A stretch of DNA of 64,000 nt from an uncultured Verrucomicrobiota bacterium (GTDB lineage: Bacteria > Verrucomicrobiota > Verrucomicrobiia > Opitutales > Opitutaceae), in the NCBI GenBank assembly GCA_903906135.1, contig CAIVJE010000123.1, positions 1 to 64,000 of the forward strand, given 5' to 3'. Made by a program: the position numbers and the translations under genes. Position 1 is the first letter of the stretch, and the number at the start of each line of letters is the position of its first letter. The notes under the pieces are model-generated. The model had not been told where the DNA came from, did not search any database, and saw only the letters and a program-made list of their open reading frames with translations. Positions 7,764 to 11,484 of the stretch are shown in pieces.

Positions 7764-9152
7764 TCACTGTAATTTAAAAGGTAACCGCTGAAGCCGGGTA
7801 TAGGCTTCCGATAAAACGACGCTCGTCTTTGGCTCAGGATTTTCTCCGGTCTTCAGAATGTAAGCGGCCGTAAAATTACCGAGCACGGCGCAATAGTCGC
7901 TATTGACCATCATGCCAATCAGATCGCCCGTTTTGCTAAAAACGAGATCGCCGCGCTTGGGCGCGATTTCTCCGAATAGGCGCGTGGTAATTCGGTTGTC
8001 GAGCTTCACGTAGCTGGCGTTAGCTGCGTCGATGCGGAAGGGCGTCTCCCCGTAACGACCGTCATCCGCGCGCACCAAGACAGCTTCGGGAAATTTAAAA
8101 GGCTCTGCCGCCAGCCGATAGATTTTCCCACCCATCAGGGCCGCCAGCGAGGCATCGATCGGCGCCACCATCACGCGCGGATCCAAGCGTAGAAAATGCA
8201 GCTCAGCCAAGGGGGCGCTGAAGGAACCCCGGGTCAGCCGACCCGCTACTTGATCATAATCGATCGCGATTTCGCCCAACACAAAAGGCGTGTCGCTCAA
8301 ATGCATCAGCGCATAAATTTGCTGACCGTCGCTCACCAAAATCGTTTGCGTGTTATGCTCCTTCACGGTCGGGCTAAATAGTCCTGGCCGGCGCGCAATA
8401 AATTTTGACTGCACCCGATTCGCCAAAAATTCGCTGAAAATAATATTGGGATTAATGGGCCGATTACTGCGAATCTCCTGACTCAGAGCGCCTGATTGCT
8501 GGGCCAATTGACCCACGCCCAGCGTCAGCTGCGAAGTTTGCTCCTGCACTTTAGCGCGCTCGAGTCGCTCGACTTCCACCTGCTGCTTGGCCTCGGTCAG
8601 ATTTTGACTAATCAGCTTTTTTTCCTGCTCGGCTACGCGCACGGCGACATTGAGATTTTCAATCCGCTGACGGGCTTCGGCATTTTGCCGATCCAAGCGC
8701 ACCAACTCAGCTTTCTGCCGTTCCGCCTCAGCGCGACGCTCTTCAAGTTCCCGCTGCATTTTGGCCAACTGTTCCTTGGACAAGGCCGCCTCCTGCGCGG
8801 TGGCCGTAAAACGTTTTTCTAATTCGCGGGTACTTGATTGGTTGGCCGCCAACGAATTTTCGAGCTGGCCCTTCTGCTGTTGCAACGCCGCCAGATTTTT
8901 CTCGCGCTCCGACAAAGAACCGCGCGTAGCGGCTAGCTGCGTGGCGAGTGCGTCGGAGGCAGTTTTTTCATCCTCGAGCGTGAGGCGCATCAACTCGACC
9001 ATGTCCGCATTGATGGCGGGCGCATTGACGGCTGAGCGCGGGGCGGCGGACTCGAGCTGCGTATGCGATGGCTCCGCCTTCTCCCAGCGCGTGAGCGCGA
9101 GGAGATTGAGCAACATAAAGTCGCACATGATTAATAAGAGCGTCTTGTTCAT
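7764..9152 (-). CDS. Single-pass coiled-coil protein with C-terminal globular domain; candidate MotB/ExbD-like subunit
   Basis: N-terminal TM MNKTLLLIMCDFMLLNLLALTRWE with buried Asp11; about 200 aa heptad-rich coiled coil; C-terminal region with GDLVFSKTGDLIGMMV. Confidence 0.6.
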   Translation of the reverse strand: MNKTLLLIMCDFMLLNLLALTRWEKAEPSHTQLESAAPRSAVNAPAINADMVELMRLTLEDEKTASDALATQLAATRGSLSEREKNLAALQQQKGQLENSLAANQSSTRELEKRFTATAQEAALSKEQLAKMQRELEERRAEAERQKAELVRLDRQNAEARQRIENLNVAVRVAEQEKKLISQNLTEAKQQVEVERLERAKVQEQTSQLTLGVGQLAQQSGALSQEIRSNRPINPNIIFSEFLANRVQSKFIARRPGLFSPTVKEHNTQTILVSDGQQIYALMHLSDTPFVLGEIAIDYDQVAGRLTRGSFSAPLAELHFLRLDPRVMVAPIDASLAALMGGKIYRLAAEPFKFPEAVLVRADDGRYGETPFRIDAANASYVKLDNRITTRLFGEIAPKRGDLVFSKTGDLIGMMVNSDYCAVLGNFTAAYILKTGENPEPKTSVVLSEAYTRLQRLPFKLQ

Positions 9153-9164
9153 CGCGCAGTCTCC

Positions 9165-10835
9165 TTAAACCGTCGCGGCGGTGCCCAGTGATTCCACAAT
9201 CAGTTTCCGTTTATAGGGTCGCACGTGACGGATCTTCACGAGGGCCACGCAGACAATGCCAAACAAGTTGGAGGAATAAGCCGCCAATAAATTCGCATCG
9301 ATGACACCGAGGACTTGCAGCACCAGGGCCGTCGCGGTGCCGGCGATGCCAAGGTAGAGGCCCCCATCAAACAGATTTTCCTCATTCTCCATGAGGCGGA
9401 GCTTAGCGGTGGCGACCAAGGCCTGCCGGTCGATCTCGGCGATTTTCAGCAAACAGATAACATACATGCCGACCTGCAAGCAGGCGAACAGCGTGATCGA
9501 GAGAATGGTGGAGAGGTCCATGGTGGTGGGGGTGGTTACAGCGCTCGTCACCGGCGCCGCCAAGGCGCCGATGACTGGAATAGTGAGTTTAATTTTATAA
9601 TCAGAAACGGGAGCAGCCTTTAACAAAAAAGGCTCGGAAAAGACAAAAAAGATAAAAGTGAGAATGAGCGCAATCAGGCCGCTACCCATGCGGGGAAAAG
9701 CACTGCGCAAGGTTGCTTCCACCGTAAAAAAAAGCCCCGTATCGACCGCCCGCAGCAGCAGAAAGATTCCTCCCAGAAAAGCAGTGTATTTTGCGAGGAG
9801 GGCGAGCTCAGGATGCCGCAGGGCAAAGGCGGCCCCCAATTCAAATTCTGGTCCCGCCCCACTCGTAACTGGCACTTGCCGTTGCACCAGTTGAACCACC
9901 GCTCCTTCGCCAAAAGCAAGCGCCAGTTGCAAGCTATCGACGCCCCGCCGGCCATAGGTAATGAGATAATGCGCGACGGTGTCGGCGGATTTAGCCATCA
10001 AGGCCGCCGTGTAAATAATCGGCAGATGCTCCGGGGCCATGCGCGTCAAATGCGCAAATTGCCCCACCGTTCCAAGACTGCCCGTCGTGCGCAAAAGCTC
10101 CGCCAACTGAATCCAATTCAGCCGCTGACCCAGCGTAAGAATATCCAGATAAAAATCTTCCAACTCGCCCATCTGACCTGACTGGATCGCGCGTTCCGCG
10201 AGAGCCCGCACCTCACGCTGCAGGGGAGCCGAGAGATGCTCGGTCTGCCAAAGATAAGCCGTGAGTAAAATAACGGCTTCCAGCGGTTGTCCGCCCGGAC
10301 GATTGGCTGGCACAAAGCGCTGCGTCGTAGTCAGGGCTGCCGTCTTCAGCAAAGTCTGGACCGCTGGTAAGCGAGAGCCGGTCAGATAACGCCGGAGATT
10401 ATCGCGAGCCTGCGGCAAGACCATAAACTTGAGCACCGGTTGCGAAGCGGCCGAAGCGGCGGCGTTGCGGTTGGCCAGCAAGGGCTCCAGCGCGACATCC
10501 CATCCTCCCCAGGGCATCATCTCACGATGCTGACGGGCAAAATTATCGATGATCACCTCGAGAGCGCCCGCACCACTATCGCCCGTTTTTTTCGCCGCGG
10601 CTAACACCAGCGCGGCGGGGCCGGGTTTATCTAATTCGAGCAAGTCGCGCCCAAAACCTGCGACGCTGGGGGTCCCCCGGCCGGCCTCACGAAGCAGCGC
10701 GACATTGAGCGATTTTACATTTACCGGGAGCAACCAAGCCACGGCCAACAGCCCTACGCCCAACCCCAGCCAGAGCTGCCAGGGAGCAGCCCGAACAACG
10801 GTTGATCGGGAAATGATGGACATGGCCGAAGACAT
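9165..10835 (-). CDS. Polytopic membrane protein, candidate MotA/TolQ/ExbB-like subunit with large soluble helical region
   Basis: N-terminal TM, about 300 aa soluble region, then about 5 TM segments ending LGIAGTATALVLQVLGVIDANLLAAYSSNLFGIVCVALVKI; ORF opens at 10883, plausible starts at 10835 or 10823. Confidence 0.55.
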   Translation of the reverse strand: MSSAMSIISRSTVVRAAPWQLWLGLGVGLLAVAWLLPVNVKSLNVALLREAGRGTPSVAGFGRDLLELDKPGPAALVLAAAKKTGDSGAGALEVIIDNFARQHREMMPWGGWDVALEPLLANRNAAASAASQPVLKFMVLPQARDNLRRYLTGSRLPAVQTLLKTAALTTTQRFVPANRPGGQPLEAVILLTAYLWQTEHLSAPLQREVRALAERAIQSGQMGELEDFYLDILTLGQRLNWIQLAELLRTTGSLGTVGQFAHLTRMAPEHLPIIYTAALMAKSADTVAHYLITYGRRGVDSLQLALAFGEGAVVQLVQRQVPVTSGAGPEFELGAAFALRHPELALLAKYTAFLGGIFLLLRAVDTGLFFTVEATLRSAFPRMGSGLIALILTFIFFVFSEPFLLKAAPVSDYKIKLTIPVIGALAAPVTSAVTTPTTMDLSTILSITLFACLQVGMYVICLLKIAEIDRQALVATAKLRLMENEENLFDGGLYLGIAGTATALVLQVLGVIDANLLAAYSSNLFGIVCVALVKIRHVRPYKRKLIVESLGTAATV

Positions 10836-10914: not shown

Positions 10915-11484
10915 ATGCCGCTGCCAATTGTTCATTATAACCATCCGATTCTGCGCAAGAAAGGCGCTAAGGTCACCGCATACAACGCTCACCTGCGCCA
11001 CTTGGCTGCAGCGATGATTGAGACGATGCACTCAGCCGAAGGGATCGGTCTGGCCGCTCAACAAATCGGCGAAGCCCTTCAGCTCTGCGTCGTCGACCTC
11101 AGCGGGGTCGAAGCAAAATTTAAGTGGACCTACGATGGCACCCATCTGCCGCTGGATCTGTTTATGCCACTGGTGTTGGTTAATCCCGAAGTAACCCCGG
11201 TGCTTGAACCCACGGCCATTTCAGAGGAAGGCTGTTTGTCTTTTCCTAAAATTCGCGGGGATGTGGTGCGACCTGAGACCATTACCGTAATATTTAAGGA
11301 TACCGCCGGCCACGATCACACGCTCCATTGCAATGGCCTGTTGAGTCGCTGCGTGCAACATGAGGTCGATCACCTGAATGGCGTGCTCTTCATCGATCGC
11401 ATGACCAAGCCAAGCTTGGACGCCATCGATCTTCAGGTAAAAGCTTTGAAAAAGCGCACCCGTAAATTGGCTGAAAAATCATAA
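10915..11484 (+). CDS. def: Peptide deformylase
   Basis: GIGLAAQQIG, EEGCLSFP, CVQHEVDHLNGVLFID motifs. Confidence 0.95.
   Translation: MPLPIVHYNHPILRKKGAKVTAYNAHLRHLAAAMIETMHSAEGIGLAAQQIGEALQLCVVDLSGVEAKFKWTYDGTHLPLDLFMPLVLVNPEVTPVLEPTAISEEGCLSFPKIRGDVVRPETITVIFKDTAGHDHTLHCNGLLSRCVQHEVDHLNGVLFIDRMTKPSLDAIDLQVKALKKRTRKLAEKS

Follow-up and report, generated by a model that had tools for sequence, protein, structure and literature searches.

A conserved gene pair of Verrucomicrobiota encodes a previously undescribed envelope system with an invariant membrane aspartate and a predicted HtrA-like arm

Ion motors built around an aspartate in a transmembrane helix drive flagella, the import of nutrients, the maintenance of the outer membrane, gliding and defence against phages. 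DegS, for its part, is a membrane-tethered stress sensor of the periplasm. The envelope biology of Verrucomicrobiota has been little studied. A single-pass partner carrying a mid-membrane Asp is a stated hallmark of the 5:2 motors (PMC9389320), and generic ion transporters of diverse kinds that carry extra domains have been noted (PMC12505986).

Here we describe a pair of adjacent genes, A and B, in the window (the whole 64,000-nucleotide stretch of DNA that was analysed, from an Opitutaceae genome), which together form a previously undescribed inner-membrane/envelope system. The locus has the following parts:

9165..10835, minus strand: gene A, 556 aa from the ATG at 10835, a polytopic membrane protein
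10722..10784, minus strand: membrane helix 1 of A, about residues 18-38
9876..10703, minus strand: all-helical repeat-like domain of A, residues 45-320, AF2 pLDDT mostly 85-93
9234..9812, minus strand: membrane core of A, residues 342-534, about five helices
9234..9365, minus strand: last helical hairpin of A, LYLGIAGTATAL...LLAAYSSNLFGI, the most conserved part of A
7764..9152, minus strand: gene B, 462 aa, a single-pass protein, 12 bp 3' of A
9090..9143, minus strand: membrane helix of B, residues 4-21
9120..9122, minus strand: codon of B Asp11, residue 11 in 135 of 135 loci
8469..8987, minus strand: coiled coil of B, residues 56-228, hydrophobic period peak 3.5
7767..8450, minus strand: C-terminal domain of B, residues 235-462, predicted HtrA/DegS-like trypsin fold that lacks the catalytic Ser motif

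A preliminary description of this DNA had reported two minus-strand genes 12 bp apart, a polytopic protein followed by a single-pass one, and both reading frames and the gap between them, which contains a GGAG ribosome-binding site, are confirmed. Comparison with homologues suggests that A may start at 10823, four codons past the ATG at 10835. About six hydrophobic helices are predicted in A, and the C-terminal pair quoted in that description is among them. Absent from it was the all-helical domain of roughly 275 aa that lies between helices 1 and 2; this domain (residues 45-320) is confidently modelled by AF2, the membrane part having a pLDDT of about 30-80. Foldseek returned no PDB match for the domain, which probably lies on the periplasmic side. 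The outline given earlier for B likewise holds: one membrane helix at about residues 4-20 with Asp11 inside it, a coiled coil whose periodicity over residues 56-228 peaks at 3.5 residues, as a coiled coil predicts, and a globular C-terminus that is neither OmpA-like nor ExbD and adopts an HtrA-like trypsin fold in the AF2 model.

No Pfam, NCBIfam or PADLOC family matches A, and PDB sequence searches with the queries A1 and A3 gave no significant match. Matches of B in the same three libraries (SMC, tropomyosin, JetC, LmuB) were rejected as coiled-coil noise; sporadic weak matches to Sulf_transp, Vpu and Wzy_C_2 were rejected as effects of helix composition. Our literature search found no description of the A-B pair.

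With B as the query, a protein search across 85,462 genomes gave 35 loci, all of them in Verrucomicrobiota and mostly in Opitutaceae, and A lies immediately upstream of B wherever the contig reaches. The best-conserved stretches in Opitutaceae are the first 24 residues of B and the last 65 of A; when 32 A proteins and 31 B proteins are aligned, D11 of B and Y494, G496, G499, T500, G526 and I527 of A are invariant. Profile searches covering Verrucomicrobiota genomes, with 'other classes' assigned from genome kinship labels, extended this range: an Opitutaceae A profile matches 69 of 291 genomes of the phylum, with only the last ~180 columns matched outside the home class, and a common-core profile matches 128 of 390, from at least 17 families in several classes. 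The core was not found in tested families of the same class such as f7, f8 and f9.

In the other classes A takes a minimal form of about 190 aa with four helices, equivalent to the last four helices of the core of the long protein. The ~275-aa all-helical domain is missing from minimal A and occurs only in the long forms, in Opitutales. The B that follows directly after minimal A, or overlaps it, is longer (570-680 aa), with an N-terminus of the form (V/M)N(R/K)(S/A)ILIVICDFLVSAML, a longer coil and the same terminal domain; profiles of the C-terminal domain from Opitutaceae and from the other classes match each other at E 3e-51.

The order A then B is kept at nearly every locus, the two genes usually overlapping or lying a few bases apart. 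Co-occurrence had been set beforehand as a test of the preliminary description, and the pair clearly passes it: the A stop is followed, at -4 to +125 bases (median 8), by the start of a B whose N-terminus is hydrophobic at 135 of 140 loci, a count that includes some genomes fetched twice and is not one of 135 independent species. Among the other five, one ends with its contig, two have broken or divergent frames and two (L173, L174) are split pairs in whose genomes B is present elsewhere. Relatives without A were also without B in all 11 cases tested. A and B are thus an obligate pair, and since the arrangement is conserved in 35 Opitutaceae loci and far beyond, it is not due to chance. B begins MRRSILIVMLDVMVLSVLAL in families f17, f24 and f47 (L161, L164-L168), where the Asp is followed by Val and not Phe; in f17 and f24 the GL.GT of A is also changed, to GLLGSV, so that A and B differ together. 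A 226-aa ORF at L091 that joined A with a neighbour (a weak match) was not kept as a gene call.

The Asp in the helix of B is residue 11 in 135 of 135 loci, with the start of B picked by position and hydrophobicity alone, and so passes the test of conservation among orthologs set in the preliminary description. The residues around it vary, with Cys, Met, Ile, Leu or Val at position 10, Phe or Val at position 12 and Leu, Ile, Met or Val at position 13. Because residues 4-20 are the sole hydrophobic segment of B, Asp11 should lie near mid-membrane. B therefore shows a feature by which membership in MotB/ExbD/TolR is tested, namely one helix that has an unvarying Asp close to its centre. At E<=10, 25 diverse B N-termini matched no Pfam family, ExbD and MotB included, and an ExbD search of the same genome at this threshold returned five genes elsewhere, B not among them. 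Comparison of the helix around the Asp with ExbD flanks gave p = 0.33 (ten ExbD windows, one poorly anchored); as judged from these residues, the B helix appears no more ExbD-like than chance.

Across A, the hairpin has an invariant Tyr, Gly, Ala, Gly and Ile and a nearly invariant Thr. Among 39 aligned proteins, no acidic residue occurs in the second to last core helices, and the hairpin interior, its ends excepted, is without a basic residue. The only conserved basic residue there is an invariant Lys or Arg close to where the last helix ends on the cytoplasmic side. Given that the hairpin offers no basic residue at mid-membrane depth, a fixed salt bridge with Asp11 is unlikely, and the lack of a basic partner in A argues for an Asp11 that is protonatable or ion-binding.

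The arm of B ends in a domain whose model (C-terminal 248 residues, AF2 mean pLDDT 88.8) gave 57 PDB matches at E<=0.001 in Foldseek, headed by Deg1, Deg2, DegP and DegS; the best 50 of the 57 are all trypsin-fold proteins and nearly all Deg/HtrA. The top figures are a probability of 1.00 and E 1.6e-5. Query TM-scores are modest (0.38-0.49), and we therefore regard the domain as a degenerate trypsin-type fold. At the sequence level, the profile of the other-class domain aligns end to end with Verrucomicrobiota HtrA at E 0.002; the corresponding alignment of the Opitutaceae domain is not significant. Thus the predicted structure, more than the weak sequence alignment, points to an HtrA/DegS-like trypsin fold for the C-terminus of B. 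The PGNSGGPLL of HtrA falls opposite PE.GDFVL of B, the aligned site reading (P)GDFVLT. No GxS(G/A) is present anywhere in 94 of 102 distinct B domains, and in two of the remaining eight a GESG lies in a different segment. With the catalytic-serine motif gone, the domain is predicted to be catalytically dead.

The preliminary description had found no neighbour that reveals a substrate. This stands for Opitutaceae and does not for the other classes, in which a Ser/Thr kinase gene lies directly 3' of B on the same strand at 21 loci: 18 of the 19 minimal-A loci of family f16 (L072, L074-L079, L081-L091; the exception is L073), together with L160, L171 and L175. The kinase starts about -57 to +87 bases from the end of B. 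All seven kinases checked with Pfam are Pkinase (E 1e-29 to 1e-37); several kinases have FGE-sulfatase-like C-termini and one has a PEGA domain. A, B and the kinase form a three-gene operon in these other classes. The Opitutales loci that were fetched lack such a kinase, as do families f17, f20, f21 and f24.

Two genomes of family f2 carry a PAS-domain histidine kinase after B in place of the Ser/Thr kinase (L092:1557-3533, minus strand; L093:8975-10960, plus strand), Pfam-confirmed in L092 only. On the other side of the pair, a peptide deformylase gene (10915-11484, plus strand) is divergent from A in the window. It is found next to A and B in 32 of the 35 Opitutaceae loci, and also at L060, L061 and L063-L065; being divergent from the pair, it is read as old synteny.

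The preliminary description had likened the architecture of the pair to MotAB/ExbBD/TolQR/ZorAB, partly on a G-x-x-GT...A-x-SS flavour in the last two helices of A. Minimal A reads PLYVGLFGTVSAF...LIAYSSTLIGI, which strikingly recalls GLFGTV...ALLATAIGL in ExbB. For the penultimate helix column permutation supports the likeness: GLxGTV in core TM3 resembles the ExbB helix with p = 0.0002, for a motif that was spotted before the test. For the last helix it does not, the AxxxTxxG motif giving p = 0.87; the two A helices summed give p = 0.006. Searches at the level of families gave no such likeness. PF01618 was not matched at E<=1 by any of 39 diverse A cores, and a search of the same genome with it returned five genes elsewhere, A not among them. 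In hhalign, the A core scored 20.4 against 24 Verrucomicrobiota ExbB, 20.2 against reversed ExbB and 25.9 against the highest-scoring of 81 decoy membrane clusters; minimal A alone reached E 0.0015 against ExbB, in an alignment confined to the GLFGTV stretch. Foldseek of the A model, whose membrane part is only moderately confident, returned no MotA, ExbB, TolQ or ZorA, and the ZorA/ZorB profiles of PADLOC were without a match. Assignment of the pair to this family was thus not upheld, and we do not claim membership in MotA/ExbB, since the tests bear out one motif alone.

The conserved N-terminus of B might be merely a signal peptide, in which case B would be a lipoprotein or would be secreted and cleaved: the Cys10-Asp11 found in 49 of 63 distinct N-termini does resemble the Cys of a lipoprotein followed by Asp at +2. 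However, the residue before the Cys is Ile, Met or Leu and not Gly, Ala or Ser, the hydrophobic run ahead of it is too short, and Ile, Leu, Met or Val replaces the Cys in 14 of the 63 while the Asp is invariant. With the lipobox [LVI][ASTVI][GAS]C unmatched and its Cys variable, we consider this account very improbable and reject it. A could instead be an extremely divergent member of MotA/TolQ/ExbB, in which case B would descend from MotB/ExbD and have exchanged its periplasmic domain for another. The gene order, the Asp in the partner helix, a four-helix core with an N-in/C-in charge pattern, GxxGT in the penultimate helix with AxxxT/NxxG(I/L) in the last, and the TM3 permutation result are all consistent with such a descent; the decoy-level hhalign score, the Pfam and Foldseek searches and the ExbD flanks speak against it, and we hold it to be unlikely. 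A likeness in working is a separate claim from one in descent, and an ion-coupled transducer that works in the manner of MotAB/ExbBD/TolQR is the most likely reading of the pair.

By analogy with the 5:2 ion motors, we tentatively propose that copies of A surround the single helix of B, so that Asp11 looks onto the polar conserved hairpin of A, which has Tyr, Thr and Ser and lacks a basic residue at mid-membrane depth. On being protonated or binding an ion, Asp11 would alter how A and B are arranged and so move the arm. B would act as the moving or transmitting element, made up of the Asp helix, a periplasmic coiled-coil rod and a dead HtrA-like tip, and the tip may bind an envelope protein or peptide. 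In the lineages with a kinase, the envelope event would probably also be signalled to the cytoplasm via phosphorylation. We infer from the predicted proteins the physical complex, its topology and stoichiometry, the ion coupling, the motion and the ligand; the earlier idea of a PMF-driven machine is accordingly a plausible one. A motor-like working is suggested by the A-then-B order, the invariant mid-membrane Asp without a basic partner, the polar conserved hairpin and the periplasmic arm, and is further favoured by the obligate pairing, the TM3 motif and the variable Cys10 beside a fixed Asp11. It is weakened by the missing profile or fold link, the last-helix and ExbD comparisons and the short cytoplasmic part. 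A close rival, which we regard as quite possible, is a passive envelope sensor or anchor, in which the tip of B has misfolded envelope protein, peptide or cell-wall material as its ligand and A passes the bound state of the tip across the membrane, to the kinase where there is one; Asp11 would then keep B within A through packing or hydrogen bonding, with no ion flow. An HtrA/DegS-like fold, shared with a known tethered sensor, the loss of the catalytic motif, the kinase directly 3' of B at 21 loci and the lack of detectable kinship with ion motors all fit a sensor. Yet it leaves unexplained an invariant acidic residue in the helix core without a basic partner in A, and most Opitutales loci are without a nearby kinase. 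The data do not separate the ion-motor and passive-sensor readings. That the pair represents a separate ion-driven motor class, restricted to Verrucomicrobiota as far as seen, with an Asp axle, a rod tipped by a dead protease and kinase reporting in several lineages, is possible and less likely than not.

Neither A nor B is recognised by any family library searched, and the pair offers precise residues for testing, namely Asp11 of B and Thr500 and Tyr494 of A. If it is a true motor, its unrelated arm would show how far the principle stretches, or that the same principle has two origins. As a passive sensor, the pair would still make up a phylum-level envelope system, with a dead protease as its base and, in several lineages, a kinase linked to it.

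Set beside known systems, the pair is like MotAB, ExbBD and TolQR in the order of a polytopic and then a single-pass protein, in the mid-helix Asp of the partner, in the periplasmic arm and in a GLxGTV-like motif. Unlike theirs, the arm of B consists of a coil and a putatively dead HtrA-like domain rather than an ExbD or OmpA-like one, and the cytoplasmic part between the helices of A amounts to only about 25 residues, far fewer than in MotA or ExbB. KwaA of Kiwa resembles the A core in having four membrane helices and gave weak PADLOC matches; these concerned 2 of 39 cores (best E 0.0003), the next gene is not KwaB, and we treat them as chance. With DegS and HtrA, B shares a predicted trypsin-like fold and is membrane-tethered and probably periplasmic; unlike them, it is without the G-N-S-G-G-P motif, has no PDZ domain that we could see, sits on a long coiled coil and is paired with A. 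Zorya couples its motor pair to further proteins. With GldLM and ZorAB, the shared idea would be a small ring, here of A, that drives a long or elaborated arm, here B.
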